Shown here piece after piece: positions 14,501 through 63,977 of a DNA stretch of 64,000 bases; position 1 is the first letter of the stretch; each line of letters opens with the position of its first letter. Origin of the DNA: Owenia fusiformis. Lineage: Eukaryota; Annelida; Polychaeta; Sabellida; Oweniidae. The position numbers were made by a program, and so were the translations under genes. Under the pieces are notes generated by a model. The model saw only the letters and a list, made by a program, of their open reading frames with translations, was not told the origin of the DNA and did no database searches. The stretch is from assembly GCA_903813345.2 (NCBI GenBank), contig CAIIXF020000006.1, forward strand, positions 9,102,989-9,166,988. Reading direction: 5' to 3'.

Positions 14501-17500
14501 TGAAAGAATTCTGTTGAAATTCGACGCCTGATAATTTCTTTTTAAGTTTGACCCAAAAGATAATTTAAACGTCCACATTTTTATTTCGGTAAACAAAATT
14601 CCCTTTTAATTGCTCTGGAGCCCAATACAGTCTTGCTAAAATATATACGTTTTATTAACTGATTATTACTAGGCAGATTCGGGTTCGCCGCTTGTATGCT
14701 ATGTCGGAAACAGATGGGTGTTTGGAGGGATCATCAGTTGGGGGATCGGATGTGCTGCTCCTAGGCACCCTGGGGTTTACACTAGGGTACCAAAATATTA
14801 TGATTGGATTGTGGGTAACACAGGTCAGTGGCTTTTATCACAGTTGTCGATTCTAAATGACTACATGTTTCAAAGATGCAATGCATGTAATATTAGACAG
14901 ACATTACTAAAAACTGAAACATTCGGAGAACTTACATTTCAGTCTAGATCAAATAAAATGCTATATACAGCCACTGTTTTATGTTTATAAGATGTCGCTG
15001 GGGAGAATTATGTCATAGAGACCCCAGTACCTACAACACCTTCTACTACAAAAAGAACAACTACCATACCATTTGAGGTCACCACTCTAGACCCTGGTCC
15101 TATGGTTTCAAGTAAGTTTTTAATTAGGAGAGGATAAAAATATTTAGCCTGACGTTCAAGTTAGTAACGGGTTCACAAATATATATGTGTACAACTGCAG
15201 GCCCCTGGCCAGATTTATGGGATTCACATTTGACAACTTTAATTTGGCCCAAAATTATTTGAGAAGTGCTCAGGATGGTGAAACAACAACATGACTTTGA
15301 AAGAATTTTTGGCCAAGGGAAATCAGAAAATCTCAAGTTTTCAAAGAGAGGTATCGATATGGTGAAATGAATTCACGGTCCTTTGTGTAATGTTGACTGA
15401 TTGGCAACAATTTAATGCAAAAATCATTAACATATATTTGATTTTTTCTGTTTTGTTAACATTTTTGGTTTTTAGTGAAATTGTTTTTTTGTTTCTTTCT
15501 ACCAATTCTTGTCTTTCCGAACCTTGTTCGAACAAAATAGCATATACAACATTTTCTTAGATCTCTCAATAGTATTGTTATACAAAGGAAATTTTTGTTG
15601 ATTTAACAAAAAGTATGCAAAAACTTAAAACAGAACCCCCAAAAATAGATAAAAAATAAAAAGTTAAACCTTTTATTACATGAACGAGATACTTTTTAAA
15701 ACCAACCAAACGTTTCCTTTGTACACTTACAATATTGAGGGACCTAAACACGTTGTGTTTATGTCGTTTTGTTCCAATGAGGTTCGGATAGATGTTTCAT
15801 TTCATTTCGAACATACAATACCAAGAACGAAAGAAGTGTCTGGTGTGTTTTCTAAAACAATATAGAGAAAAATATATATTTCAAATTATAATGTTACCAT
15901 CCAAAAGATGAACATTAAATTGACTCTGTGTAAAATTTTCAGAATGTTTTGACGACTGGTTTAAGAGAAACGCGTGTTGAAAAAGTTCACCATATCGATA
16001 CCACTCCTTTGAGCTCCAACCCCTAAAGACATGCAATATTAAACTGTACAATTATAGGGCCATGTGGAGACAGAAATTTAGACCAGCTCTACAGAACTCG
16101 AATAATCGGTGGTAAACAGGTTATCCCTTTGTCCTGGCCATGGATGGTGAGCCTATGGTACGACGGACAACACTATTGTGCTGGCACACTTATTAACAAC
16201 TATTGGATCTTGACTGCTGCACAGTGTTTCAGGTAAACATATACAGGACTAGATATCGTATTTTACACCAGGTTTTATTAATAGGCCTATTCATGACCCT
16301 CAATTCGGTATTTGCCAGCATTTTCATTTGAAAGCTATTAAAATTACACTATAAAGTGTGCACTATAAAGTGTGCGCTATAGAGTGTGCACTCTTCGTTT
16401 ACCCCCCCTATCACACAAAACTAGTTCTTACCCGTTCTTGCCAGTCCTACGAAAACGTCGTAAAACGGGCTCAATCTGGCTGTGGTCGGGAAATATGTCT
16501 AAAATAATTAGCTACTTCGTTCATAAACAGTCTTCAAAACGTCCATCTCATTCGCAGTTCGTTCAGGTCGCACCACGTCGGTGTGCAAAGTCGTATAACG
16601 CTTCCCTTAGTCTAGAAGGTCATCATGACCTGATTACAGAACGGTATGGTCGTCATCGAATTTTGAATCGATTCAAAATTCTAAATCACATTCCCCGTCC
16701 GGGAAAGTCCATGAAGTTCGTAAACAGACCGTAGAACGTTGTAGCTACGTTCATTCCGTTCGCACACAGTTTAAAACCAGTTTTGAAGAACGCAGTGGTA
16801 ACTTGCTTGGTGTGCAATTAGTTCTACCTCGTTCTCAATACGTCCTCTGACAGTTCAACTAGTTGTAAAAACGTCCCTAGTAGGATTGAAGTACGACGGT
16901 GCCGTTCGTAGTACGTCCAGCTCGTCGTTAGTAGGTTGTCACTCGTTCTAATTGTAGAACGTGACGACCAAAAGAACATTCTGAGCATGTTCTAAGTTCT
17001 ACAGGACCTACCCGTTCGAGTACGTTCGATGAAGTTTGTATATAGACCCCAAACGGTTCTAAGTACGTTCAGTCCGTTCGTACACAGTTGAAGCCCGTTT
17101 TTGAGAACGTAGTGAGAACTAGTTTGGTGTGATAGTAGGGTTACTATATGCCATTGATTAGATCAAGTATATACGTTTTTAATTATACGTGTATATGTTT
17201 TTCATTATGTGACGCCATTATATCGGAAACGAAATTATTTTGCAAAAGTTATTACTATTTCTAAATGTGCAAGCATTACTTTATTCGAACAAAGCTACTT
17301 TTGAAACGCAGTTTTGAAGATAAAACAAACTTTCCATACATCACATTTTAATCACATTGAGTAAGGTTTCAATATAAGCAGCACGTGGCCTTGACAAGAT
17401 TGCTGTTTATCTATACATGCAACAAAAAGCGCAATTATAGCTCAATATATTATAAAATGTTAAGTTGATTTAATTGATCATTCAAACAATTTAAATGTAA

Positions 17501-18830
17501 TACAATATAAAATAATGTATTTTTATTTTGCAGCTACAATAGAAACGTCCCACGCAAATGGACAGCAAATCTCGCCAGACACGACCTATCAGGGAACGAT
17601 CGCCTTCAAAGGCAGATTAATTTTGCTGAAATTATATCACACGAGAACTTTACTAACTTCCCAATCAGTAACGATATAGCACTTGTACGACTAGCAACAC
17701 CAATAGCGTACAGCACAGGTATATTCCCCGCTTGTATACCATATATCGACCCATTTGCTCCGGCTCTGAGGTATGGAGATCCTGACAATAGGTTCCAGTG
17801 CTTTAGTATGGGATGGGGAATTTATAGTAAGTGCACTAGTGATCTCATTTTTTGTTCTCCTTGACTTTACGCATAGTGTTGGCAATTAAAACCACTGCCA
17901 TGTCACAATAGCAATTTGTATAAAAGCTGCAGAGGATTGAAGTTGCATTCGTAGGCTCTCATTTAAAAAGAAAACAATATTGTGATTGCCACGTCGAGAC
18001 ACGACCCATTCATTTTTTTCCTAATTCACATTTCTTTTTTCTCCAAAGGTGCTAGGCAATTTTCTACGTACAGCAATGTCATAAGACAGGTACAGCTTCC
18101 AATTTTGAAATCCAGTCTCTGTAATTCAACTAACTGGTACAACGGTAAGGTATCGAATGAAATGCTTTGTGCTGGATATGCAAATGGTGGAAAGGACACG
18201 TGCACGGTAAGTCACACTCCCCGCCAAAATTTTGGCAACCCCATTTTCCCATTCGATTGTTATACATACATTTACAGTTAAGCCAGTAAAGGTGTGCACC
18301 GACTTTAAGCTTGTTATGTTTGAATTTGGATTTCAAATCTTTCTGAAAATTGATTACCTTTTAAAAAACTTACCCTGAGACACTGGAAGCAATCTTCAAA
18401 CAGTATGTCCATGTACTCCCTACAATGATAATTTTATTTTCTGAAAAAGAATTAATACATTTGTATGGAATTTATTTTATGTATTTTCTCTAGTACTGGT
18501 TAAAGTTAAATCCCTCATGGTACTCAATCCAGAAACTAGTAAATTAAACAACATTCAATTCACGTTCTAAGACCAGTAGAATGAGATACTTTAACAATTT
18601 TAGATATCAATTAATTATTACATGTTTCCTTATTTATACTTTTGCAGGGCGATTCAGGTGGTCCTTTGATTTGTAATCTACACAATAGATGGCAACAAGC
18701 AGGGATAACTAGTTGGGGCGGCGTGTGTGCCCAAGCACGTCAACCAGGCGTTTACACTCGAGTGGCTAGCTACACTTCATGGATTAATGAGACAATGTAT
18801 AGAATAGATGCACTAATGAACACGCCTTAG
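11593..18830 (+). CDS. tandem trypsin-like serine protease, two S1 domains (5' incomplete)
   Basis: Ten exons join in frame to 601 residues and a TAG: 11593-11679, 12364-12547, 13650-13945, 14252-14412, 14673-14823, 14992-15111, 16058-16232, 17534-17826, 18049-18206, 18648-18830. The order is Ser/Thr/Pro linker, S1 domain 1, linker, S1 domain 2. Both domains have the same intron phases (linker 1, His exon 2, Asp exon 1, next 0), so the second unit arose by duplication of the first. The first exon starts in mid-codon with a linker rich in Thr and Pro, so there must be upstream exons with at least a signal peptide; I could not find them. Secreted or extracellular location is expected for this family. 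Domain 1 keeps the triad; domain 2 lacks His. Introns contain MITEs at 12814, 15342 and 16408. A possible AATAAA lies at 19197. Confidence 0.85.
12364..14823 (+). other. S1 protease domain 1 (catalytic triad present)
   Basis: Spans exons 2-5 of the protease gene. Activation site R-IIGGEAA, His motif VVTAAHCF, Asp motif HDIALVELN, and Ser in ADSGSP. The usual GDSGGP is therefore altered at two of the glycines, one of which (Gly193) helps form the oxyanion hole. KDAC six residues before the Ser places an Asp in the primary specificity pocket, which predicts cleavage after Lys or Arg if active. SWG and PGVYTRV are intact. Confidence 0.85.
12814..13606. mobile_element. TTAA-flanked MITE in protease intron 2
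   Basis: Begins TTAAAGGCCCCATGTAAAGT and ends with the inverted counterpart GGGGGCTTTAA. TTAA target duplication and a TTAAAGG terminus resemble the T2/Kolobok signature. Interior is AT-rich and non-coding. Confidence 0.7.
15342..16011. mobile_element. 670-bp MITE in protease intron, copy 1
   Basis: Inverted termini share GGTATCGATATGGTGAA, preceded by CAAAG on both ends. Interior segments recur inverted at 32308-32692, for example CGGTCCTTTGTGTAATGTTG. Non-coding. Confidence 0.65.
16058..18830 (+). other. S1 protease domain 2, catalytic His replaced by Gln
   Basis: Spans exons 7-10. Activation-like R-IIGGKQV, then LTAAQCF where the family has TAAHCF, so the triad His is Gln. Asp (NDIALVRL) and Ser (QGDSGGPL region, here GDSGGPL) are retained, as is the pocket Asp in KDTC. 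Without the His the domain should be proteolytically inactive and may serve as a binding or regulatory module. The exon and splice sites around it are sound (acceptor ATTATAG, donor AG|GTAAAC), which argues against a pseudogene. A misread base would be needed to explain it otherwise: CAG for CAC or CAT. Confidence 0.85.
16408..17135. mobile_element. MITE with CTATCACACCAAACTAGTTC ends, copy in protease intron
   Basis: Left end CTATCACACAAAACTAGTTC; the right end is the inverted CTATCACACCAAACTAGTTC. Related copies lie at 28646-29270, 31893-32165, 32693-33480 and about 33655-34165. It sits in the intron between exons 7 and 8 of the protease gene. No transposase. Confidence 0.75.
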
Positions 18831-25411: not shown

Positions 25412-26496
25412 CATGGTATACCACTCCTTCGATCATCATCTACGCTACTGGTATCAATATATTTATTTGGGCCAAAGAGAACAAGAAATCTGGATAAATG
25501 ATTAATACATCATGCGCAAATCTGATCTGAAATTCGTTGTTTCAATGGGCATGGCCGATCTTGGTCGAACTGCTGCGATCAGATTGTAAAGTTGTTCTTC
25601 TGAATCGTACGTAATCGCTGGATAGTATCAAATTTAGTCTTAGCGCACCGCATCCAAACTCGAATATTGATACTGAATGAAGAGTTTACTCGATTTTAAG
25701 GATACTGACGAGTGACGAGTTGACGATAGGAACATCTACAAAGTAAAGAGTTGAAACTCCTTGATTATTTCAGCCATACATCATCATTCCATTTTGTAAA
25801 ACAATGTTATCCATAGACTGGATTAAAAGAGTTAAATCAATTAATTTAATGAAATAACCTGAACCATACAAACAAAAAAGTAAATTACACAGTGTCGTAA
25901 ATATCTTTATCGAAAATATCATTATGGACTTTTCGCTCGTGAATGCTGACTGATATTGATAGGAAGATGTCATTCAAAATCCCAAGATAACAAATGTTAT
26001 TTCTCTTATTAATTTCATCTCTGATTTATTCACATAAATGTGTTTATTATATCAGCTACCTGTTCTTCTGTTCTTGAGGAATATTCACGACATTGATATA
26101 TTTCTGGGTAATGATGGCTAAAATCAAATGTGTATGTATAGGCCTGTCTGATACATATGAGTGATATACGATTGTTAAAGTGAATAGTAATTGTCTTTGA
26201 GTGTATTAAATCACATCTCACGAAAGAAATTTATTCCATTGGCAATGAAATTTTAAGATATTTTACTTCTTGTGTTGATCCTTGTGATTCATTTAATACA
26301 ATGTTATGTTACACGATTGGTAAATATACGATATTAAATACTGTAGCATACATGGCATTACTTTAATTAAATTAATATCATCTTCATTATGGCATTAATA
26401 AACTATTAATTAATAAATTTTTAGTTGTTATAGACATTTAGTAAGATGAGATATTTTTATTCCAGTTACTTTTATTAAGGTAAATATTATATTGAG
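25412..26496. other. AT-rich non-coding region
   Basis: No exon, RNA gene or repeat that I can support. Confidence 0.4.
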
Positions 26497-27004
26497 GATA
26501 ATTCCTTTCACATTTCTTATGAGAACATAACAAGGGGGCATTAACTGCCTTAGCTAGTATAGTTAAGTGTATCCCCTTGATAGAGAACACATGGAGATAA
26601 TTCATTTCACATTTCTTATGAGATCATAACAAGGGGGCATTAACTGCCTTAGCTAGTATAGTTAAGTGTATCCCCTTGATAGAGAACACATGGAGATAAT
26701 TCCTTTCACACTTCGATGAGAACATAACAAGGGGGCATTAACTTCCTTGGCTAGTATAGTTAAGTGTATCCCCTTGATAGAGAACACATGGGGATAATTC
26801 ATTTCACATTTCTTATGAGATCATAACAAGGGGGCATTAACTTCCTAAGCTAGTATAGTTAAGTGTATCCCCTTGAGTGAGAACACATTGGGATAATTCC
26901 TTTCACACTTCTAATGAGAACATAAGAAGGGGGCATAAACTTCCTTGTTAGCTAGTATAGTTAAGTGTATCCCCTTGATAGAGAACACATGGGGATAATT
27001 CCTT
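26497..27004. repeat. 99-bp tandem repeat, about five copies
   Basis: Units begin GATAATTCCTTTCACA and recur every 98-99 bp (GAGAACATAAC landmarks at 26521, 26620, 26718, 26817 and 26916). Each unit contains AAGGGGGCATTAACT and, later, AGTTAAGTGTATCCCCTT, which are imperfectly complementary, so each unit could fold. Not a CRISPR: there are no unique spacers. Confidence 0.85.
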
Positions 27005-34725: not shown

Positions 34726-37700
34726 TTAGCTCTGGCCATGTAGGTCTTCCGAAAGTTCTGGAACATATGGTACAACATTTCCTTCATTGGTTACTATAAC
34801 TGCATCCTTCGGTTGCTCACTACGTACACTTAAATTTCCCCCAAGGGTGGCCACTTTAAGTTTATGTTTATTTCTAAGATGAAGGTGTAAGTTTCCTTTA
34901 ACATTGGAGCAGTATTCACATAAATGGCATTGGTATTTTTTGGTGTTCTGAAAGAAGTGAAGGAAACACATTAGCACAATAACGCAAATGCGAGTAGGTA
35001 GTTACCAGTTTCACCACCAGGTGGCTCGCTCGGGTCAGATAGCATGGCGAGTTTATAGTAGAAAGTTCCCTTTAACTTAAATTACATCTGTTTTAGTGGT
35101 TCAATTTTCATATAGACTTTATGTATCGAATAGTTATGCAAATTAAAGTATGCCCAGTAAAAGAAAATGGTATATGTCCAATACAAGAAAAGATATTTCA
35201 CTTTTTGAGATTTTGTAATATTGGGTCTATGGGGAATCAACCCGAACTAGAAGTCACATTTTCAAAAAAGATTAAATTTTTCAAAGTTGATAAACAATTT
35301 TCGAAACCATATTTTTAGATGTATTTTTACATGTAGATTTCAAATATGACACCACTTTGACTGAATTTTGAATATTTAATGACGTAAATCAAGATCATTT
35401 CTATTCGCATCTAGTCTATTATTCAGGACTTACATATGTTCAGTACAATTATCTTCAAATGACAAACAGAGTCAAAAGGGAAAAATAGGTACAACATAGT
35501 CATACATAGAAAATCCTTGGATCATCAATCATCCACATACTAATTATTTATGCAAGAAAATTTGAAAATGTAAATAAATCCATCAAATAATTATTAATTT
35601 TCAGAGAAAACCTTCTTAACCTTGTGAGCACAACTGATTTCCCCATAATTCTTAAGAAGTTATTTAGTTTTGGATTGGAAATCTTATGCCATGGAACTGG
35701 CAGAAATATGGTTTCAAATGCTTTGAAGTTTTTTCACCAAACATAGTGTATTTATTCTTTTATTTATTCCATTTAGTTTAAACTTCGTAGTAGTATTACC
35801 CAGTTTTCCCATCGGTCAGGACTGTTAACATAATACGAATAACATAAACAAACTGTTCTAGGCTCAAACTTTGACTCGCAAAACAACATGATGATTCTAC
35901 TTAATTTTCGATTGATAAACTGTAAGGCTACCAAAATATGTCTGCTGAACTGTAACATAACACAAAATGGCCACTTACTAGCCAAAATGTCATAAGAAAG
36001 TGTAAAATGCTTTTTGTTGGTCACATATAAATTTTCAACAAAATCGCTCCACTACTTTTCTAGTTACAGCAGAAATCGTAAAATATTGTATAACAGCCAA
36101 CTGTTTTTCAAAAAAATAAGTAGATTTTCAGCTTAATCAATATCCTAAATAATTTATTGCATTTACAACGTATTATTGTTACACTTCATATGTTGTACCT
36201 AAAATACAATAAAATTGACAACAAAACGACTTTTGAAAATTGGCTTTAGAGCAGAGCTTTGGGCATATACGTATGTGGAAGCCCAAGTATACTTGGCTAC
36301 CCATCTATTCCGACTCTTGCCGAAGTGTTCTTACCTGACCCAGGTATTCCGAGTTTGCTTATTTTTTCAAATACACTCGATAGATGTCTTGCTTTTTATC
36401 GCGGACATCTATCGGATGTATTTGTAAAAATAAGTAAGCTCAGAATACTTGGGTCGGGTCAGTATACTTCGGCAAGAGTCAGAATAGATGGGTAGCCAAG
36501 AATACTTGGGTCTTCACATACGTATAATATATAAACGATATTGGGCCAACACTATTTGAGTTATTGCCCGAACAGACATATGTACGTAAATACATAGAGA
36601 TTGAGCCATTCTCTTTATGACTGTGTACATGTATTAAAACATACCTTATGCGTGTGCATGATTCTAGTATGTCGAATTAGACTACCTTTCCTTCGTAGCA
36701 GTTTATCGCAATGTTCACATTTGTACCCCTTCCCTAAGAAGTAAAAAGTATTGTACATGTATTAACAATTTAAAACAGCAATGAAAAGAACATAAACAAA
36801 ATCACACCACCCAGTATCTGCTCAAAAGTGGAAATGTAGAACTTACACCCTCTTACATGTGTACTAATTTGAAGGAAATCTCATGAGTGATTTCATGAAA
36901 TATAAGGTTCATCAAATAACTTCTGAAATGGCTGTCAGGGAACAAAATACATGTACATGTAACTACCCAAAAAAATAGCCAACAGTAGAACAAATCCGAT
37001 GAGCTGTTTTCCTGGAATGATGACAAGAAGATTTCTTGAAAAACATTTAAAATGGGTGGCTGAAACAACGTGGCTCCTTTTTAGTTACATAGTCGTAAAC
37101 AATAAGTGGAGGGAGGAGGTTGGTAATTTCTGTTAGAAAATTCCTATGCAGATACACTATAGAACTTGGTATCCTCGAACATATATGGTGATGACAAGAT
37201 GAGTAAAAAACTTCAGAAAAGGATGCATGTACTTAATGGGAAGCAGAGTGTTTTGTTATACTTTTTAGTCATTTCGTTTTAGCACGTGTGCATACAATAT
37301 AATCAGATTATCTCAAACTGAAAATAAGCACTGCAGAATACCTTCATGATATGTTCTGTAATGAACTTCCTTGGAAAAGAAACTGGTAAATTTCTTTCCA
37401 CACATTTCACATGAGTATAGCTTAGTTCTCAGCTTTTCATGTTGACTTTCGTGTGTTCTGACATTAGCGAACGTTATATCCCAATAACTACAGCGTTTGC
37501 ATTGATATCTACAAAGAATAAAATCATGGGGACATCAGGATTAGATTTAGTTGTAACATGTAGATCATTTTAAGGCAATAAGTTCAATATTTTGAACATT
37601 TTTTAATGTCAAATAATAATAAATTAAGGAAACAGTCAGAGTCAAACGTACGTGTATCTAAAGTCACTTGCCTTAGCAAACATCAAGGTTGTAGCCAACA

Positions 37701-40700
37701 GGCCAAGTAGGAGCCAGGTGAATCAGTTGCCTCATCAAAACTATCAGAAATGTGCTTACGGTATTCAATCATTTTTGAACCAAAAATGTAAACATGAAGT
37801 CCAAAGGTAATAATTTATTTAATATTTGCCTATTTTGCCTCATCTATTTCAATTTGCCTCATCTATTTTAATTTGTCTAATCTATTTTAATTTTCCTCAT
37901 TTATATAAATTTGCCTCGTCTATTTAAATTTGCCTCATCTATTTAAATTTGCCTCATCTATTTTAATTTGCCTCATCTATTTTAATTTGCCTCGCCTATT
38001 TCAATTTCTCATATATTTCACTTTGTCCCACACACTTCAATTTGCCACAGCTAATTCAACTTGTCTTTCATATTTCAATTTTCCTCATCTATTTCAATTT
38101 GCCTCATCTATTTAAATTTGCCTCATCTATTTCAATTTTCCTCATCTATTTCAATTTGCATCATCTATTTAAATTTGCCTCATCTTTTTATATTTGCATC
38201 ATCTATTTAAATTTGCCTCGTCTATTTTAATTTTCCTCGTCTATTCTAATTTGCTCGGTTATTTTTCAATCCTGGCTACAACCGTGAAGGTTCTTTAAAT
38301 AACCAAGTAAGAACAAATAGATAGTATACATTTTACCATATTCATTACGTTGGCTTCGTATCTTACAATACCGGTTGATATGATGATAAAATTTTAGATT
38401 GAACCAAACCTGTGAAAATCCTTTGGTAGTGGAATTTTGTGAACCTTAGATTCATGGCGTACCAAACTATGTCTTCCTTTAAAGCAAACACCACAAGCTT
38501 GACAAGGGCATATATTGGGAACATTGGAAACCAATTTCCTTCTTTTCTCTGCTTTCACCTCATTATGGGTTGTGTTGTAGTGCCTCTACAATTTAATTAC
38601 ATGTAGACACTTATTTCAGCGTTTTTAAATACTCATAACTTCCACGGTGACCAAGTGTTAACAGTGGAAATTGGCCCGGACGTGATTTTTCAAACTCTTT
38701 AGACGTGTTTTTTGAAAATTTGAGAGGTGGGTTGATAAATTTAGTTATGAAATTGCTTTCACTTGACTTTATGTAAAAGAAAGAAATTTATATTGCTTTC
38801 CATACTATATATCCTAACTCCAGGTATCCGTAAACGCGTAATTTGCACGAATCGTATGCTATAGCCTAGTCTTGGTATATCGGAAAGTGAGCTATTATGT
38901 CAGTGTTATACATTTTTGAACCAAAAATGTAAACATGAAGTCCAAAGGTAATAATTTATTTAATATTTGCCTATTTTGCCTCATCTATTTCAATTTGCCT
39001 CGTCTATTTTAATTTGCCTAATCTATTTTAATTTTCCTCATTTATATAAATTTGCCTCATCTATTTAAATTTGCCTCACCTATTTCAATTTGCCTCATCT
39101 ATTCAAATTTGCCTCACCTATTTCAATTTGCCTCATCTATTTAAATTTGCCTCACCTATTTTAATTTGCCTCATCTATTTAAATTTGCCTCATCTATTTA
39201 AATTTGCCTCATCTATTTAAATTTGCCTCATCTTTTTATATTTGCATCATCTATTTAAATTTGCCTCATAATTAAATTTACCTTATTTATTTTAATTCGC
39301 CTCGTCTATTTTAATTTTCCTCATCTATTCTAATTTGCTCGGTTATTTTTCAATCCTGGCTACAACCTTGAAGGTTCTTTAAATAACCACGTAAGAACAA
39401 ATAGATAGTATACATTTTACCATATTCATTACGTTGGCTTCGTATCTTACAATACCGGTTGATATGATGATAAAATTTTAGATTGAACCAAACCTGTGAA
39501 AATCCTTTGGTAGTGGAATTTTGTGAACCTTAGATTCATGGCGTACCAAACTATGTCTTCCTTTAAAGCAAACACCACAAGCTTGACAAGGGCATATATT
39601 GGGAACATTGGAAACCAATTTCCTTCTTTTCTCTGCTTTCACCTCATTATGGGTTGTGTTGTAGTGCCTCTACAATTTAATAACATGTAGACACTTATTT
39701 CAGCGTTTTTAAATACTCATAACTTCCACGGTGACCAAGTGTTAACAGTGGAAATTGGCCCGGACGTGTTTTTTCAAACTCTTTAGACGTGTTTTTGAAA
39801 ATTTGAGAGGTGGGTTGATAAATTTAGTTATGAAATTGCTTTCACTTGACTTTATGTAAAAGAAAGAAATTTATATTGCTTTCCATACTATATATCCTAA
39901 CTTCAGGTATCCGTAAACGCGTTATTTGCACGAATCGTATGCTATAGCCTAGTCTTGGTATATCGGAAAGTGAGCGATTCTGTCAGTGTTATACATATTT
40001 TTGCCTGAAAATCACTAGCCTGACTTGTATTAAATGAATACATCCATTCATAAGGAAAGCACTCACAATATGTGCGAAAACCACAAGTTAGAAGAACTTA
40101 AATAAGTAGCAATTGACCGAATAATTTTTTCTAGATTAAACTATTTAGACGTGTTCAAAAGATTTTGGTTAATGACGTTGACTTGTTACTGGAACGATTT
40201 AGACGTGTAAAGACATTGAGGTTTAACGATTTCGAAGTGGAAAACAGCACAATTAACAGTATTTATTTCCCAAAAAAATAATCAGGAAGTGGAAGAAATT
40301 GTTGTCTGAGTAATACAATCTTAATTATAAATGATTAACAATTGATTAACAGGATTGATCTATGGAATCATTACAGAATTTGATACTAAAATCAAAATGG
40401 TTAGAATCAGACATGCAAGGTTAAAGGGGCAGCAAGGACTTTAGAGAAAAAATTCAAAATTTTTTATTTTTTCTGAGCTATCAGGTCAATATTTGGCTTA
40501 ACATCTTCTCTGACATACTTATTTTCTTCAAATGTATGGATAAACTCTCAAGTTCAGCATTAAGAAGTGTAAATTCAGTTCAAAATCAAAGTTCTATATA
40601 GGGAGTCCCGCTTATAGATTTTTAAGATTCACCACGTTTCAAGAGCCATATCACCTGAAATAATGTTCATCCAGGGATGTAGATGATGAAAATATATGTT

Positions 40701-43700
40701 AGTCTTGATGAAATATCCAAACTTAAATATATTTTGACACTGGTCGATGATCGTTGAATGCCCCCCCCCCTGCACTAATTGTTGCACCTTTAATGCAAGT
40801 GAGGTTTGCGCAAGTGAGGTTAGCCTCGTCGCTCGTCGTTTAGAAAATTTGACTAGTCACATTTTTTAATTGCCCCGTCGCTCATTTAAAAACCGGACTC
40901 GTTGCTATTTTTTAATTTGCCTCAAATAAGTTTTAAAACGTCTCCATTGGCCTTAAATCTCTTTCCCCTGTCATGGACGTGGAATTTTATTGAAAATGAG
41001 AAGAAATGTTTAGTTTGCGATGCACTAAATGCATATATACTGTATGATCACCTTATGTACGGAATAACTCAACCATTATCTAGTGCTCAAAATCTATTAG
41101 GTTTGCCTCGGGATTTTGAACAATTTGATTCGTTGTTATTTCCTAATTTGCCTCACACAATGCAAATATCTGCCTCAAATTATTTTTGACATTTTCCATT
41201 TGATTTTCATTCCATCAAATAAATAAAACGCTACATATGCTGCTATCGTTGTATGAGTGACCTTTGAACTGTATTGTAACATGATGTGCTATACTGCGAA
41301 TTAAATTACAACATCTGATGATCTTGTCAAATCATACATCTGTCTTTCAACTTCTATCAGAAATACGAGATAGCAAGAATTTGAAAGAATTTGAAATTAC
41401 AAAATATGTGAAAAGTGCATTTTAAACACTCATCTACAAAATACTAATGCGATTATTTTCAGAAGCACAGACAAATTATTAAGCAACAAAACGTGTGAAC
41501 TGTGAACACTATTACGAGACAATTCAAAGTCGTTTATTTTATCACGTCTAAAACGTTAACTGTACGATTCCAAATCGTTAACATGGTTATTATAAGACAC
41601 GTCAATGACGTTATATTGTCCCTTCTCCATCGTAAACTCCACTTTCTACATTAACGGTCATTTATGGCAATTTTAAGACAAAGATAGTTAAAATATTAAC
41701 ACGATCTTAGAGAACTGAATATTATCCCACGTTGTGGGACACTAAACGCAAATTAGTACATATTTCTGGCACTTTTGGTATATAATTGCGATTAATATGA
41801 AGTATGATGGAATTATCCCCAAAATAGATTCGTGGGTATGAAGTCGAAGGTAGAAGTTATGTACGTTTGTAAAATATAGAATATTCTTAGCTTTTTGCTC
41901 CATTCTCACGAATGTCGCATCCTATGTTCTTACAAAACACGACTAAAGAGTTTGAAAAACACGTCCGGGCCAATTTCCACTGTTAACACTTGGTCACCGT
42001 GACTTCTTTCTAAGTCAGTTTTTACGAACAGAACATTGTTAACAATGCTAAGCAGTTTAGGATGCTAGAAAACCCAACCCACTCATTATTAGTGTATTAC
42101 ATTTACTGTGTGATGCTTTTATAACTGACCACACATATGAGTTGTATATGCATACCTTTTCTCTTCTATTAGTCAGGAAGGTCTTCATACAAGAAGGCAT
42201 TCGACATGGAACTGGTTCACTCCTGCTATGTACTTCTAAACAGTCTTCCATAGCAGTTTTTGTATAATACCTATGTCCACATTCCTGAAAGAATATTCAT
42301 TCACACTCATACATGTAGCAAAATTCAAATCAATGAAAACATCAACAGCAACCCATGGCGTAGCAATCCAATCGGCTGTGGTAGAGCATCGGACTTTGGA
42401 GGGGTCCTGGGTTTGATTGCCACACAGGCCTTTCAATTCAGGACACTTTTTCTCAAGTCTATATCTCACTTGTTACACTATGTTTGTTAGTAAGTCATTC
42501 CCTGGTGCACCCTACTGTCATAACAAAACTAAAAATATTCAATATAACTTGACATATAGTGACCAAAATGATAATGGGATTGGGATTTATACCAGCGATC
42601 TTCCTTGGATAGTAAAGAATGCTAGTAGTGAGGAGGTTAAGTTACATGTTTAAAAGGGAAAGTGCATGTATGTGGATGTGTAATATAATAACCATCATGG
42701 ATTACTGTCCCTTTCTCAATCGTTTTATCAAGGAACCTTATTATTACTTATTACTATGATGATGGGGAGAACTTCACATCTGTTATTTATAGAGAGAGGA
42801 CCATGATTCTAAATCCAATAATTCTAATATCTCCACAGGGTACAAAAGCCTTTTACCAGATTTCCCATTCTGATACTCATAACATCTTTCTGTTTCACCT
42901 GAAACATGATCTCAGGGCTGAGAAGAAATGCGATGTCATGGTTTATCATGATGCAGATTTCCAATAATAATGTAATACATTTGTAATAATGATATTCTTA
43001 GCAGGCTACTAAAGTGTCTTTGGATTACTTGGATTAACATTAAATTACTTTATAACGAAATGAGAAGGCTTCAATACAGACATACAGAACTAACAAATAA
43101 AAATAACGTTGCAAGTAAGTTTCAAAATTGGATAAGTCAAGCATATCATAATGAATCATATAAAATACTATCCAGATGAACATATTTAATAATATAAAAA
43201 TAAACTTTTCAATTTTCTCCCATTGGGCATTCATTTAGTCATAGTCATAAAGAATTGCTCATGGGCTTTTAGAGGAAATTCTTATTGATTTACACCTCTC
43301 AAATAACACACATGGGCCTGACATTGAGATACTCCAATTCAAATTGACAGGAAAATTAATGCAAAAAATAAGTACCTCGCATTGGAATTTTGGTCCAATA
43401 ATGTTATTCTGTTTGTGTTTATTCTTGATGTGCTCATTCAAATGTTTTTTTTCGAGAGTAGCATAAGTACAATCGGGTTCCTGCAAATAAAACATAAAAT
43501 CAATGGTAAAAATAAAGGGAAAGTAAATAGTTTTATTCTGAGAGGGACAATTATGATTATAAAATGACTGAAGGTAAATAACATATGGAAAGCACACCAT
43601 CAAGTACCTATCCAAGTAAAATCATCTTCAATTAATCATTTTTATATTTACCTTATTAAGTTCCTACCAAATCTAAACGTTTTAGATTAAAAAACGCACC

Positions 43701-46346
43701 ATTTGTGTTCAACTTACACAGGTTTTCAATCTTACCTTTCTATATTCCTCAGCACATTTCAGAAGTCTGAACCCAGATTGGACAATGCCATGTTTGGAAT
43801 ACATATGACGAGCTAATCTCCGATTGGATTCAGAAGGACGCCTCCGTACTTTTTCTATCTTGATTTTATAAGTGCAGATGTGACAGCTTAACCCAGCAGG
43901 AGATCTGGTTGCAGGGATCTTATCAAATGATGGGAGCGGACATATTTGCAGATGTCTCATCCAAAGTTTTTCACTGACAAATTTGTTGCATTTATAGCAT
44001 CGGATTGACTCAAATATCAACTCACCCTTGTGTTTTGTCTGATAGCAGAAGTAACAATGCCTGAGAAAACGTCTATAATTTAAGAAAGGTGGCATTTGGC
44101 AATTATCACAACAGTAAGCAAAATTGTCAAGAGCAAGATTTGGAGTTGCATTTATTTTAATGAGATCTGTTACTGGTTCTCCTGTCCAACATGTAATAAA
44201 ATGGGTCAAAAGTTTCAATTCATTTTTAAATCTTTGTTTACAGTTAGGACACCTTATCCCACTTTGCGTTATTTTAAAAAGAGGATTTCGTCTAGGCGTA
44301 CATTTTATTTTCTTTCTTTCGGCTGATTTGTCTTTCATTCTTTTACATTTTACCCTACAGCTTCGCTTAATCATAACTGATGCATTATCAATGGTATTAG
44401 ATACCTCTTCCACAGTGCCATAAACTTCAGGCCTAGGGTCAGGGACTTGCTCACTCAGGTCAATCTTGGTATCATTGTACCCTGTATCATTTTCACTGTC
44501 TCCTGTTATTGCCTCCTTATTTTCTGCATAAGTTTCATAGTGTCCAATTCCAATCTCATTTTCTCCTTGAGAAGTGATATTTTCAAGAGAAACAGGCCAA
44601 GGTTTTGCTTTACCAAGACAAGGGGTATTAAAGGGATTATGAGTGACTGCATATTGGCACTTTTCTTGGTATAAATCCAAATACCTTTCCTGATCATACA
44701 ATTGAGTCTCTTCATGTATACCATCCCTATGGTCATTTGTGCCATCTTCATCTTTTAATTCATTCATCTTTTGGATATTCACATTTAGGACATCCTGAAA
44801 GGCATTGACCATATCGGTATTTAGTATAGATGAGTATTGGTGATCGATATATGCCGGTATGATTGTTTTATTTTCTATCTCAAGCTTAGCACACTGAAGT
44901 GTAACAAATGCCTCCCTATTCATTTCATTGTTTTTGTTTAGCATGTTACTTGATATTGTTGCTGATGATGCATCTTTAGTTGTTTCATCATCACTATCTC
45001 GTTCATATTTAATTGTATCCTCAGCGATGTGGACACGTTCATCAACTGAGCTTACTCTATTTTCATTTAAAATTGGTTCATCATTTGAGTTCATTTCAGC
45101 ATTTACATTTCCTTGGTCATACATAAAATGAGCCCCTTGATCTGTGATTAATTCATCATCATTTGACTTCCCTTGATTTGCATGATTGGAGATTAATTCG
45201 TCACCAATTGAGATCATTTCATTAAGCTTTAAATCAACTGCATCATGAGCATAAAGGTTTTCAGAATTAACATGAGATTCTCGTTGACTCGCATCAACAT
45301 CCTCTTCATCACATTCAAGGTTCATCAGATGGCTGCTCTCAGTCTCCATTTGAGGTTCTTTTTCTTCAAATGAGTCTGTCTTAATGTCATTTGATGTTTC
45401 TCCTCCCATGGTGTCTTTATTTACATCATGTTCTGGTAAGATGTTTCCTGTCACCAACGATATATGTTCCTCCTCAGGATTATTTTTCACACCTTTTTCT
45501 TGAAGAGTTTGAGATTCTGACTTGCTTGTGTCAACAGCTTCATGCTTTTCGTAATTGTTCTTGAAATAAAGATGTTGTTTTTCATTGGCTGGCAGATTTT
45601 GAGACTCTGAATCTGATAACTGAAGGCTGCAGATCTTTAGACAATGGGGTATTATTAGTTCTGTAAGAGATTCTAACCCAAGGACCTTACTAGCTTTAAA
45701 TAGAAATATGCAATTGTCAGGTGTTACTTCCATTTCCCCAGTGTAAATATAATGTAAGATATTCATCATGTCCTTGTGATTCAGATTTGATCCTAAATGT
45801 GGTCGTAAATCAAGCAGGACCCCAGAGATTCCCTCAGTGCCACGCATGCGTGAGATAAGGTCAAAGCATTTTTTGAAATACTCAGACGCCGCTATTAATA
45901 TACACGAGTGAGCGTTTACATTGACATCACAAGTTTTTATCTTTATGTCACAAGCTTGGTTTTGTTTCAACATGTTCCATAATATTACAGAGAGGTGTGA
46001 TAGCTTTCCTTTGTGTCTTTCATCTGACAATAAGACCTGAAAATCAGAGTATGGGTTTTCTTAACTTTACAGAAAATTCTTTCAGAACATTCTTTAAGAG
46101 ACTAGAACTAAGTTTCGCCTGCAATATGTAATTCTTTCTTTAATTTTTTATCATAGCACTGTTTGCATATGAGCATATGAGTGTCTCTTGAAACTCAAAC
46201 ATAGACATATGATTCATGAATAAAAATCTTAAGCAATTGCATAATAGTATTAATTCATATGCTGTACATACAAATATCCAAATACAAGTCCTACTACTTA
46301 CTGGATCAGATAAGGTGGGTGGTGCTATATCTTGATTTTGATTCAT
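34726..46346 (-). CDS. BTB/POZ zinc-finger protein A, complete coding region, eight exons
   Basis: Minus-strand exons: 46302-46346, 43736-46036, 43376-43480, 42156-42284, 39494-39669 (or its copy 38410-38585), 37342-37508, 36645-36733, 34726-34947. They join in frame to 1077 residues. BTB domain at about residues 35-150 (NVNAHSCILIAASEYFKKC, ILHYIYTGEM). A long acidic, Asn/Asp/Glu-rich region follows, then a basic stretch (KCKRMKDKSAERKKIK) that may be a nuclear signal. Zinc fingers: three C-x2-C-H-x3-C fingers and one C2H2 in exon 2 (about 611-770), then about seven more across exons 3-8. Several fingers are completed only across splice junctions (for example CRMPSC ending exon 4, the two His in exon 5), which confirms the model. 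Family members are nuclear transcription factors, usually repressors. The start at 46346 is chosen by match with the paralog; in-frame ATGs also exist at 46364 and 46373. Confidence 0.9.
34978..35421. mobile_element. 444-bp MITE, copy 2 of the 3152 family
   Basis: End-to-end match with 3152-3594, including AATGCGAGTAGGTAGTTAC at the left and CGCATCTAGTCTATTA at the right. It lies in the last intron of zinc-finger gene A, 30 bp from the final exon. Confidence 0.8.
36265..36528. mobile_element. 264-bp foldback MITE in the last intron of gene A
   Basis: Near-palindromic arms of about 125 bp (ATACGTATGTGGAAGCCCAA and complement) separated by a short loop around TTGCTTTTTATCGCG. Forms an almost uninterrupted hairpin. 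Confidence 0.85.
37825..38265. repeat. 19-bp minisatellite, TTTGCCTCATCTATTTAAA
   Basis: About twenty imperfect copies with variants CATCTATTTCAAT and CGTCTATTTTAAT. A second block is at 38966-39345. It lies in an intron of gene A, and its open frames are compositional. Confidence 0.85.
38410..38585 (-). other. duplicated zinc-finger exon 5, downstream copy
   Basis: 176 bp with intact acceptor (ATTGTAG|AGG) and donor (CACAG|GTTTGG). It encodes the His pair of the preceding finger and a C2H2 finger (CQACGVCFKGRHSL). It enters at phase 0 and leaves at phase 2. The 39494-39669 copy is essentially identical. Splicing both in series would read into TGA ten codons into the second copy, so at most one can be used in a coding mRNA. 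Confidence 0.85.
38966..39345. repeat. 19-bp minisatellite, second block
   Basis: Same unit and flanks as 37825-38265, copied by the 1.1-kb tandem duplication, with a different order and number of variants. Confidence 0.85.
39494..39669 (-). other. duplicated zinc-finger exon 5, upstream copy
   Basis: Same length, splice sites and reading as 38410-38585; it is reached first in the direction of transcription. Both copies join correctly to exon 4 (phase 0) and exon 6 (phase 2, completing an Arg codon). Confidence 0.85.
39727..42001. mobile_element. 2.3-kb element with CACGGTGACC ends and 5-bp target duplication
   Basis: Left CACGGTGACCAAGTGTTAAC; the right end read inward is identical over about 40 bp. 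ACTTC flanks both sides (39722-39726 and 42002-42006). Inside both ends TTTAGACGTGT motifs recur. A CAC start with 5-bp duplication fits Transib-type elements; that class call is inference. No transposase frame. A second left end at 38643 belongs to the tandem duplication. Located in an intron of gene A. Confidence 0.7.
40421..40793. mobile_element. 373-bp TTAA-flanked MITE nested in the CACGGTGACC element
   Basis: Begins TTAAAGGGGCAGCA and ends TTGTTGCACCTTTAA, inverted with mismatches. T2/Kolobok-like terminus. Confidence 0.6.
42156..42284 (-). other. exon 4 of zinc-finger protein A
   Basis: 43 codons, phase 0 on both sides. Joined to exon 3 (ending FQCE) it forms C-x2-C-x12-C-x3-H, a finger with Cys where the first His is usual. 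Its own end begins a C-x4-C finger whose two His lie in exon 5. Confidence 0.85.
42353..42426 (+). repeat. tRNA-derived SINE head or tRNA relic
   Basis: GGCTGTGGTAGAGCATCGGA resembles a tRNA D-arm and A box, and GGTCCTGGGTTTGATTGCC resembles the T-arm and B box (usual GGTTCGAATCC). The acceptor stem does not pair well, so it is not a functional tRNA. It lies next to exon 4 of gene A, in the intron. Confidence 0.5.
43736..46036 (-). other. BTB exon (exon 2) of zinc-finger protein A
   Basis: Opens with acceptor TTTTCAG|GTCTTATTG and closes with AAAG|GTAAGA, both phase 0, 767 codons. It carries the BTB domain, the acidic spacer and four fingers; three of these use Cys as the last zinc ligand (CPNC..H-FIT-C, CDNC..H-CYF-C, CYKC..H-LQI-C). 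The spacer has one copy of a unit that is doubled in the paralog. Confidence 0.9.
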
Positions 46347-50390: not shown

Positions 50391-50439
50391 ATTCCTAACC
50401 CTTGTAGGAACGTTAAGTACCCGGTCACCCGGTTTTTTA

Positions 50440-52578
50440 AGTAGCGGTCACACTAGCCGTGTAGGCTCACCGTTCGCCACCGTGTGGCTAATTATGGCCA
50501 GACGGCGGTGCACGGTATGGCCACACGGTGGGTCGTTTCCCGCCCGTTGAGAAACGTTCAGGGAACGTTGCCGTCCATCCACACCCGGCGAATTTTTTGA
50601 GCATGCTCAAAACTTTTCCCGTTTGAGTAACGTTCGGTTGCGAACGGTGATAGCGGTACGGGAATGGTATAAGGACGGTGCAGCCGTTAAGGACACGTTC
50701 GCAGAGCGGTAATGGGACGATGGTGGACGTTGACTCTATCAGTGACGGGCTGCGAACGAGAGTGTACCGCTTGGGTACCGTCCGATAAACGAGGTTCAAA
50801 CGGGGGTTTGAAAGGTCACATAAAAAGGGTTTTCACGGTACCAGCCGCTTAACGCTTAGGTAACAGTCCATTAACGTGTTAACGGCCTTATAACTGCTCC
50901 ATAACATCCTCTAAACATCCTATTACCGTGAACTCGCAATTGTACCGCCTCGTGACGCAGTGTTGTCACCGTGTTCTGCCGTTTCAACAATTTTGCCTCC
51001 AGTTTATTTAAATATTCAGTTATTGTCCAAGGTTTTGTCCCGTAACTCGAGACATCAATTCTTCGACTTTCTCATTTGTACTTTGAAGCCACAAATCCAC
51101 TCAAACCACTTTGACAGAGATTCTTTTGAAGACACTGAGAAAAACAAGTTACAAATATATTTCTTTTATCATACACGAAGAAAATAAATAAATTGCAAAA
51201 ATGATTAAAGCTCAAATAAAAGTGAAAATAAATGTCCAGTTAGCATTATAAGCCAAACTTCGAACTATCAACTGTTTTATGCATTTTACGTGATCTTTCT
51301 GTTCACGTTACCGTCCATCAAAAAGTTGTGAAAGCTTTATTTCTCATTTACACGACCAATTATATAAGAAAAAATTAATAGGGTGGAGGAAGAGCCGATT
51401 TCTGTCAGAAAATTCAATAAAACTGCAATATTCATGTTCATGACAACTTAACGTTCACCCATTAATCCCTTAATGATTAAGCTACGGTATAACAAAGATG
51501 TGAAGTCTTCCGTGAATTTTCGAGTGATACCCTTCTGAGTTATTCGATTAATTTAAAAAGGCGCGACGTCACCAGCGTGCAAAAGTCAATATTTTTTGGT
51601 ATATAACTCAAACGACGCAGGTCTAAGACCTGTAATATATACGTTGACGCAATTATCACAAAATATATGTAGTTGCCGTTTTACAAAACGTTATAAAAAT
51701 AATATAAAACACCGCCGTCTTTTTTCGAAATCAAATAAGATTTGGCATATTTTTTATTAGTGATTCAATAAACTGACTTCAATTCCAATTCGAGTACAGT
51801 TCACTTCGAATCCTTCCATTTTAATGAGGAAAAATATTTCTAAACGTTGGAGGGGAGTAAAGGTTCAATCTGTACCTTCCAATAACGCTTTGCGTAAAAT
51901 GTAATGTCAAAACAAATAGTTACCCCTCAGAGCAATTAGTTTCAAAACGTATAGTAAAAACGTAAAACGTGATATGTCGGATGAAATATAGATATTGCAT
52001 GTTTGTCTACCAAAGTTGGTCAGGTTCTCGAGACCTATTCATTTTCAACGTATTTTCATGGAATAAACATACTAACTATTACAGAGAAAGACTTAACTCG
52101 GTTGACCCAACTAGCTGCTTACAGGATGGACAAGCTATGTGGCCACATTGTACAGTTAAATATAGACAAACTTGTAATGTTATTGAACATAATTAAGATG
52201 TATAAGCAAATTAATTATATAAATCATTTAGCTTTGAACACGTGGATGGTTGAGCATACATACCAAAAAGTGAGCTAAATATTGTGAGCGTTTGCATGAC
52301 GCCATCAAGGCGGTTCGGCCGATATCCAGGCGTTCCGGCCGGTGAAAACCTGGTGAGGGGATGGTATGCGCCAGTTGAGAACACGGCGAGAACGGTAAGC
52401 AAGAATTCTGAAACACGGTAAGTCCGGTACAAGGCCGATGAGAAGCCGGTACAGACCCGGAATAGAACGGTATAGTCCCGGTCAAAAATGTATAAAAACA
52501 ATGCGGCCGTCGCCGTCTGGCCATAATTAGCCAAACGGTGGCGAACGGTGAGCCTACACGGCTAGTGTGACCGCTACT
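50440..52578. mobile_element. 2.1-kb PIF/Harbinger-like non-autonomous element (inner layer)
   Basis: Inverted ends of about 70 bp start AGTAGCGGTCACACTAGCCG. TTA is duplicated on each side (50437-50439 and 52579-52581); TWA is the usual Harbinger target. Removing it restores the hAT-type right end (GGTTTTTTACACAAACCC). GC-rich ends, AT-rich interior, no transposase. Confidence 0.75.
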
Positions 52579-52821
52579 TTACACAAACCCGAATTTCTGG
52601 CCGGGGGGCGGAAGCTCCCCCCAGCTCCCCCTCTGGCTATGGGCCTGCCCCCCGGCACCCCCACCCCTAATGTTAGGCCTACGATGGTCTCTTACTCTTA
52701 TACTAAGTCTAAAATAAAAATGACCGTGATGTAAGGGCCTAGGCTTAGGCGCCATGACCTAGGCCGGCTGGATCACCTTTACAGTAGTTATCCTGCGACT
52801 GAGCAGAGTCAAGTTATAAAC

Positions 52822-59200: not shown

Positions 59201-62200
59201 TTTTTCTGTAATGTCCTGATTTCCAGTCCTTCAAACATCTGTTTTTTCAATATTTGTTGCATTAACATGTTGTGTTTTGAGACACGGTTAACATCTTGAC
59301 AATATGATTCATGCTGAGGTTTTTAAGATATCACTTTTGGGTGACTAAAATTAAGCTGAAAACATTTATATATCACATGAGTTTTCCCTATGTGGAAATA
59401 ACATAAGGAATATTGTTTTCCACTTTATCCAAATGAATCATATTTCCTTTAAATTGGTTGACTATGTCTACAAATGCAACATATTGATGCACCAAACATT
59501 GAAAAAACATATGTGAAAAGGGCAACATTTCAGAAAAACGTTTATGGGGTGTTTGCACCTTCCCTGTCTCAAAGTCCAAATCATTTTGTCACCTCTATGA
59601 GTGCTTGATTTGGTTAATGCATTGACCTAACACATGCACCTGTTCAAATCCCCAATCGATAGCCGAAATCGAACATGACAGTTTGAAATCAGTTGCGATA
59701 CCTTCCGTGGTCAATTCTTTGATTAGTTTTAAGACCAAATAAACACCTTTTGCAATATAAGAATATCTTATGATGCTTGAATTAAAACATACGCTGTATG
59801 AACCCTTTATACTCAAACATTTTAATGATTTATCCCAAATACCCCGAAACACAAGTAGCTATAGTGACCATTTTTTTCATCAAAGTTGAGAAGAGTCAAT
59901 GACATTTGGCATTCTTATTCGACACTGTATTTAACACCTCCTGTGAAAATTTGAATGAAAATGGCAAAACCTTTGAGAGTGATTTTCTCAAAACTTATTG
60001 ATCGACATGGAATGTGGAACCAATTAGAGAGACTACTCTTCCATGTTTTCCAACACGATGACAGTAAAAAGTCAGCACAATGGAGATTTTCAGGGCACAA
60101 TTTCTTCATAATTAGCCTTCCGAGGGCCCAAATTCTTTTTTAAATACATAATGAACCTTCTGGTGCCTTGAGATACAATATACCATATATTTTCTTTTAT
60201 ACCATATACCATATTTTTATACCATATACGATAAAATTTGCCCCCTGTTATACAATATACAATAAATTTTCACCCTCTTATACGATATACAATATCCCTA
60301 TACACCCCCCCCTTTAAACGCATTTTACTATAACTCGAAAAGTAGTGGAGCGATTTTGTTCATATTTGGTATGTGAATACTATAATCATGGCACACTTTC
60401 TAATGATACTTTTGGTAGAAAGTGGCCATTTTGAAAATGGCTGCCATTATTGCTATTTACTTTGTTTGTAAAAATTCCAGCAATGGCTGGGATTTGCTAC
60501 TCTTTGGCCTTGCTGTTGTCTAGTAATTCATGAATCATTCGTGGTTTCAAGAAACACCTATCAGCCTATGGTATATGCTTGAACATCCTCCGAACACAGG
60601 CCTCCAGAACTCGTACCTCCTTCTTCCACCCTGCGATCAGCTGGTTACTAGCGGCCAGGAAAAGGAAGGAACTTAGGGGATGATGTCTGGAACCCTGCGT
60701 TCGGAGAATGATGCTTGAATACAACCAGTGCTATATCTACTACAATGCATTACATGTATATACAAAAATATGTATTGAAGAATGTATTCTCTGTTGTTTA
60801 AAAATCAATTACATTGCAGACATTACTGAGTCATAGTATTTAGTCTCTATATATTCCTGTTTTTAAAGAGCTTTCTGTCAAAGTTAAGAAAATTCACACT
60901 CTGTTTTTCAGGTCCTATTGTCAGATGAAAGACACAAAGGAAAGCTATCACACCTTTCAGTAAAATTATGGAACATGTTGAAACAAAACCAAGCTTGTGA
61001 CATCAAGATAAAAACTTGTGATGTTGATGTCAATGCTCATTCGTGTATATTAATAGCTACGTCTGAGTATTTCAGAAAATGCTTTGACCTTATCTCACGC
61101 AAGCGTGGTACTGCAGAAATCTCTGGACTTATAATTGATATACGGCTACAATTAGGACCAGGACTGAATTACAAAGACTTGATGAATATCTTACATTATA
61201 TTTACACTGGAGATATTGAAGTAACACCTGACAATTGCATATTTCTGTTTAAGGCTAGCAGGATTCTTGAATTAGAATACCTTACAGAACTAATAATACC
61301 CCTTTATGTAAAGATCTGCAGCCTTCAGATATCAGACTTGTCAGCCAAAGAAAAACAATATCTTCATAACAAAACCAATTACAAAAAACATGAAGCTGCT
61401 GACACAAGCAAGTCAGAATCTCAAACTCTTCCAGCAAAAGGTCTAGGAAATAATCCTGAAGAGGAACATGTATCGTTGGTGACAGGAAACATCTTACCAG
61501 AACATGATATTGATGAAGACAGTATGGGAGGAGAGACATCAAATGACATCAATAAAGAAACATTTGAAGAAAAAGAACCTCAAATGGAGACTAAGAGCAG
61601 CCATCTGATGAACCTCGAATGTGATGAAGATGATGCTGATGCTAGTAAACAAGGATCTCCTATTAACTCAGAAAACCTTGATGCTCTTGGTGAGGTTAAG
61701 TTAGAGATTGATAAAATGGACTTAAACAGTGATGAATTTATCTCTAATGATGCAAATGAAGGGAACCCAAATGATGATGAATTAATCATAAATGGAGGGG
61801 CAAATTTAGAGTATGATCAAGGGAATGTAAATCCTGAATTGAACTCAAATGATGAACCAAACTCAAATGAAAATAGAGTTAACTCAATTGATGAATCTCT
61901 CCACACCACTGAAGAACTGACAGATGCAATTAAAGATGAAATATATTATGGTAATGAAACAACTAAAGATACATCATCAGCAACAATAACAAGTAGCTTG
62001 CTAAATAGAGACAATGAAAATGATAGTGGCACATCACAATGTGTTCAACTTGAGATGGAAAATAAAACAATCATTCCTGTATATATTGATCATACATACT
62101 CATCTGTACTCAATATTACAGACTCATTTGAAGGTGGAGCACATTATAGTAAGACTGAGAGCAGACACCTGATGAACCTTGAATGTGATGAAGATGATGC

Positions 62201-63752: not shown

Positions 63753-63977
63753 GTAAGATTCAAAATACAGTAAAACTGGTAAAATACGGTAAAATTTAAT
63801 ATCATTAAACCTAAAACTGATCCTTTTCAGATTTGGTAGGAACTTAATGAGGAAAATATGATTCATTGAAGATGATTTTGCTTGGATAGATAAAAAACTT
63901 ATTGATAGTTTCCTTTCCATGTTATTTACCTTCAGTAATCTTTCCATATGTTATTTACTTTCAGTCATTTCATAATT

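Follow-up and report, generated by a model that had tools for sequence, protein, structure and literature searches.

We found that one exon of a BTB/zinc-finger gene of the annelid Owenia fusiformis stands in two identical tandem copies, and that the inverted ends of a putative transposon in the preceding intron provide one upstream arm complementary to two nearly identical downstream arms, each adjoining one exon copy. We tentatively propose, at somewhat under an even chance, that transposon ends have here acted as ready-made docking and selector arms, so that an insertion and one tandem duplication made a competing-structure pair that chooses between identical exons. All positions refer to the window, the whole stretch of 64,000 nucleotides that was analyzed, from contig CAIIXF020000006.1 (9,102,989 to 9,166,988).

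The gene, referred to here as gene A, was modelled on the minus strand from 46060 to 34726 as a chain of 1,070 amino acids, with no start codon identified. It is apparently an animal gene. Its exons were placed as follows.

46060-43736, minus strand: BTB exon, open at its 5' end
43480-43376, minus strand: exon 3, from the chain of 1,070 amino acids
42156..42284, minus strand: exon 4, 129 nt, ending in phase 0
39494..39669, minus strand: exon 5a, 176 nt
38410..38585, minus strand: exon 5b, 176 nt, with the same sequence as exon 5a
37342..37508, minus strand: exon 6, entered in phase 2
36733-36645, minus strand: exon 7, from the chain of 1,070 amino acids
34947-34726, minus strand: last exon, from the chain of 1,070 amino acids

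The BTB domain scored above the Pfam cut-off (47.4 bits vs 20.5). The zinc-finger models scored below theirs (best 22.6 bits vs 25.2, E 1.3e-4), and the finger assignment therefore follows mainly from the C2H2 pattern. It was noted that one C2H2 finger is split over a splice, with two cysteines in exon 4 and two histidines in exon 5 (C-x4-C-x12-H-x4-H, read by eye from the 4-5-6 translation), while a second finger lies whole inside exon 5. Together, the split finger and the whole finger indicate that one copy of exon 5 fits and is needed.

Gene A also has an inverted paralog within the window, gene B (60888-63773, plus strand), which corresponds to 43736-46060 of gene A on the minus strand. 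Across the 757 codons compared, the two genes have 73.6% identical amino acids, with a dS of 0.276 and a dN of 0.136 (ratio 0.49); the window stops short of the gene B counterpart of exon 5. The large coding exon of gene B contains an internal tandem duplication of 528 bp (61588-62115 and 62152-62679, 91.9%), which has an offset of 564, a multiple of three, and is absent from the shorter exon of gene A. Elsewhere, several open reading frames at 13594-18281 resemble pieces of what we take to be a serine protease of the trypsin type. Tandem arrays were also observed with a 16-bp period at 715-882 (99% matches) and with a 99-bp period at 26496-27004 (about five copies).

We compared the two exon 5 copies, which the initial annotation had described as near-identical, and found them to agree at 176 of 176 bases (0 differences). 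They are tandem homologous exons with the same length and phase and the same fit to the frame, and, as had been stated, both fit the flanking exons, the 4-5-6 isoform being open and reading through. The predicted stop ten codons into the second copy was also recovered: in the 4-5a-5b-6 isoform, 5b reads TGA at its tenth whole codon. When exon 5 is skipped (4-6), a stop follows after six codons. Double inclusion and skipping of exon 5 are both unproductive, and a single copy keeps the frame. The earlier argument from the frame was thus right and covers skipping too, but the statement that the gene must choose one copy was too strong, because the frame and NMD remove wrong products and make no choice.

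The claim of good splice sites held in part. AG and GT are present at both exon 5 copies, but their acceptors are poor in pyrimidines, with a longest pyrimidine run of 2 at each, the shortest among the seven acceptors examined (4 to 8 at the other five). Pyrimidines occupy 8/17 positions at the 5b acceptor and 9/17 at the 5a acceptor, with exon 4 likewise at 9/17. The intron between 5a and 5b measures 908 nt, which rules out splice-site crowding as an exclusion mechanism; mixed U2/U12 introns are ruled out by the GT and AG found at the introns around exon 5. Since 5a and 5b are identical, the 4-5a and 4-5b junctions have the same sequence, as do the 5a-6 and 5b-6 junctions, and spliced reads cannot separate the copies. 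The only distinctive junction is 5-to-5, yet a single exon 5 closed into a circular RNA would yield the same sequence.

The exon copies lie within a larger tandem duplication composed of two units. The initial annotation had placed this duplication at 37770-39993, an exact match to the units as we delimited them (39993-38911 and 38910-37770).

38911..39993, minus strand: duplicated unit copy 1, with an element end, exon 5a and part of intron 5 including a 19-bp minisatellite
37770..38910, minus strand: duplicated unit copy 2

With the minisatellite excluded, the alignment of the units spans 661 columns and contains 8 substitutions and 2 gaps of one base each. None of these differences falls in the exon, and one of the two gaps falls in the breakpoint itself; 39682, 39769 and 39390 are among the flanking intron positions at which the copies differ. 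The substitutions amount to 1.6% of the 485 non-exon columns, again with the minisatellite excluded. The minisatellite parts of the units, at 37834-38254 and 38975-39338 (about 22 and 19 copies), diverge more than the remainder, and the same 19-bp motif was also seen once inside the intron 4 element, at 40907-40923, with 2 mismatches. The count of 8 substitutions in 661 columns points to young copies, in agreement with the age first suggested. The excess of identity in the exon over its flanks was not significant (0/176 vs 8 in the other 485 columns; Fisher P 0.12), and selection on exon 5 is for this reason not claimed. The longest identical run between the copies was 291 (simulated P 0.03).

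At the outer breakpoints of the duplication, the exact shared bases are ATG only (3 bp), so that the event looks like a tandem duplication joined by microhomology rather than a jump from one long repeat to another. Its upstream breakpoint falls within an element in intron 4, and the last ~267 bases of this element were copied with the exon.

39727..42001, no strand assigned: putative non-autonomous DNA transposon, 2,275 bp, in intron 4, with inverted ends that begin CACGGTGACC and GAAGT flanks

The flanking GAAGT forms an exact direct repeat of 5 bp (42002-42006 and 39722-39726), and among the lengths 2-12 only 5 gives a matching direct repeat. The inverted ends align over 69 nt at 97.1%, with 47 nt exact (arm 1). 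From its termini and the flanking 5-bp repeat, this stretch of intron 4 is most simply read as an inserted non-autonomous DNA transposon. Its 15-nt end string has 3 exact occurrences in the window, all of them at this locus (chance expectation, 0.68 matches), and two further window matches carry 2 and 3 mismatches. The TIR string had 0 exact matches in a viral contig collection. Searches of the window returned 0 Rfam matches and 0 tRNAs by ARAGORN.

The element ends start with CACGGTG, and thus with CAC. Transib and RAG-like transposons are described as having a 5-bp target-site duplication and ends with a leading CAC (PMC7204232, PMC8355894), the CAC being invariant according to PMC7204232, and the element resembles them in its 5-bp target-site duplication (GAAGT) and in inverted ends beginning with CAC. 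It departs from the protostome RAG-like consensus CACTWMCAAAC, with AAA at 8-10 (PMC7204232): compared by eye, position 4 is G and positions 8-10 are ACC. Of its 27 interior frames (>=35 aa), 2 were scanned, and neither gave a Pfam match or showed a transposase. The element may accordingly be called Transib-like by its ends only.

The inverted ends of the element, with the duplicated copy of one of them, supply three arms.

41934..42001, minus strand: upstream arm, sole candidate for the docking site, 154 nt past the exon 4 donor
39727..39795, minus strand: downstream arm 1, candidate selector of 5a, ending 57 nt ahead of the 5a acceptor
38643..38711, minus strand: downstream arm 2, candidate selector of 5b, ending 57 nt ahead of the 5b acceptor

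The duplex energies of the upstream arm with arm 1 and arm 2 were -122.8 and -122.3 kcal/mol, whereas the docking/arm 1 pair, shuffled 200 times, averaged -30.0 kcal/mol (SD 4.9, lowest -46.5). Across all five long stretches folded, either pairing lay 67.9 to 77.3 kcal/mol below the fold in which 40 nt of the docking arm were held open. Pairing of the arms is strongly predicted, and from it we only infer an effect on splicing. Given the element, an upstream breakpoint at any of 2,138 positions in intron 4 (86% of its 2,486 nt) would yield the same layout, and no selection is needed to explain it.

Inverted pairs are common in the window, which contains 28 with arms within 6 kb, the two described here included. 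It was noted that another 69-nt pair (50439-50507 and 52511-52579, 98.6%), with arms 2,004 nt apart, has a different sequence; it is perhaps another transposon, and the ends examined showed no clear repeat at their flanks. The 13-nt motif AAGGTTGTAGCCA occurs once per unit, at 39357-39369 and at 38273-38285 (one mismatch), and is inverted once downstream at 37685-37697, a placement like that expected of a second set of arms. A second arm set in intron 5, as in a bidirectional model, is not claimed from this motif because its duplex energies were not beyond those of shuffles (45/300 and 60/300 shuffles at or below the observed energy).

We propose the following origin for this arrangement. A DNA transposon whose inverted ends are long would have entered intron 4, as suggested by the termini and the 5-bp repeat. 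As the sequence shows, a later tandem duplication joined at a 3-bp microhomology copied the 3' end of this element along with exon 5 and a portion of intron 5. Given the complementarity and the predicted fold, the upstream arm could then pair with either downstream arm, one at a time. Pairing with arm 1 would set exon 4 near 5a, and pairing with arm 2 would set exon 4 near 5b while looping 5a out. The pairing and the frame rule together would bias the transcript to a single copy, and the gene could thereby survive its duplication.

Our proposal, the likeliest of the readings considered though just short of an even chance, is that pairing biases which copy joins exon 4 and that this, combined with the frame rule, leads to mostly single-copy mRNA. 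In its favor, the weak acceptors of exon 5 are sites where the proximity of a donor could matter; against it, pairing with arm 1 alone would not block splicing from 5a to 5b across 908 nt, the layout calls for no selection, and inverted pairs abound in the window. Because the exon copies are identical, the choice between them changes no protein yet, and exons 5a and 5b, if they are a mutually exclusive pair at all, would be one before divergence. The initial annotation had suggested a mutually exclusive pair at birth. This is possible, with the inverted arms of intron 4 as the best sequence evidence for a mechanism, but that account gave no mechanism and missed the arms.

Other explanations were weighed against this proposal. 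The allele may be unproductive or weakened, with both copies usually included, the stop in 5b leading to NMD and the arms useless; we regard this as unlikely, though far from negligible. In that case the duplication would be short-lived, either neutral or deleterious, and perhaps still polymorphic, and the function would be covered by another allele or by gene B, the inverted paralog. Several observations agree with such a state: the 908-nt intron between the copies imposes no crowding against double inclusion, no element was seen that blocks 5a to 5b, the copies appear young at 8 substitutions in 661 columns, and a paralog is present in the window. It is countered by the predicted pairing, which is very strong and has one state with 5a looped out. 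That same state, if it prevailed, would make the arms work in one direction, the upstream arm and arm 2 flanking 5a and looping it out to give a 4-5b-6 mRNA. There would be no real choice, 5b would be the working copy, and a circular RNA of exon 5a would be a possible product. The folding results lean toward this outcome, as arm 2 pairing was favored over arm 1 pairing in all five long stretches, by 2.8 to 8.6 kcal/mol, and the one partition function computed credited arm 2 with 65.5 expected pairs to the upstream arm, and arm 1 with 0.02. However, the energy gap is within the error of folding an RNA of 3.5 to 4.7 kb, and arm 1, transcribed about 1.1 kb earlier, could pair first. We give the modelled preference for arm 2 no weight, as differences this small say little at such RNA lengths and arm 1 is synthesized earlier, and we judge the one-directional outcome unlikely, though a serious rival and nearly as probable as the unproductive allele.

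It is also conceivable, although we consider it improbable, that an assembly error or the merging of two haplotypes produced a false tandem copy. The copies differ by ~1.6% outside the exon and the minisatellite, a value that two alleles in a polymorphic marine invertebrate could show, and the unit contains a minisatellite. Yet the inner join brings together sequences not otherwise adjacent, and the breakpoints share no more than ATG exactly, 3 bases and thus less than the overlap an assembler would need, and the window is without any N.

The proposed choice between copies by arm pairing can be compared with several described systems. In the Dscam exon 6-type docking/selector model, as described in PMC6071210, an upstream arm and a complementary arm for each variant exon allow one pairing at a time. 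The gene A locus is similar in having a single upstream arm and one complementary arm ahead of each exon copy. It differs in that its exons are two and identical, and its 69-nt arms are near-identical and come from inverted element ends. Dscam exclusion is said to need a repressor as well (PMC6071210). In the model of Ivanov and Pervouchine (2018), duplication of an exon with one intronic stem arm leads to two selectors and one docking site, and the layout of gene A equals their figure 3a as the text and legend describe it (PMC6071210). Their model was inferred from statistics on annotated clusters, whereas gene A has legible breakpoints and a stem made of the inverted ends of a transposon. 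A 2022 paper by the same authors treats it as still an open question whether competing structures could be a by-product of tandem duplication (PMC9013439).

Two further cases are partly similar. U2AF1 exons Ab and 3 resemble the gene A locus in having duplicated exons, long inverted repeats upstream, and a frame shift with NMD if both are used, and are unlike it in being an ancient pair (PMC5224494). When the longest inverted repeats ahead of those exons were mutated, splicing was unaffected (PMC5224494), which speaks against assuming a function for the gene A arms. The Drosophila hydra first exons, flanked by DINE-1, resemble the gene A locus in the repeated duplication of an exon beside a transposon, but each of these first exons has a start site of its own, and the passage on them mentions no docking role (PMC9013439). 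Human cases of mutually exclusive exons are nearly all ancient (PMC9741552).

Mutually exclusive exons, docking/selector control and a published birth model are all already known. As far as we have seen, the new feature here is that the case is very young, its breakpoints still legible, its arms derived from the inverted ends of a transposon and its exons still identical. Among the matches listed in the open-licence literature, covered by titles and abstract starts, we noticed no earlier description of docking arms formed by transposon ends. Because the origin of the paired arms is legible here base by base, the birth model becomes testable. The pairing model would also explain how a gene can tolerate an exon duplication that breaks its frame. 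Transposon ends may be a general source of docking and selector arms; if they have indeed acted as such arms, the choice between exons would precede their divergence, and transposon-rich genomes should often make such pairs.
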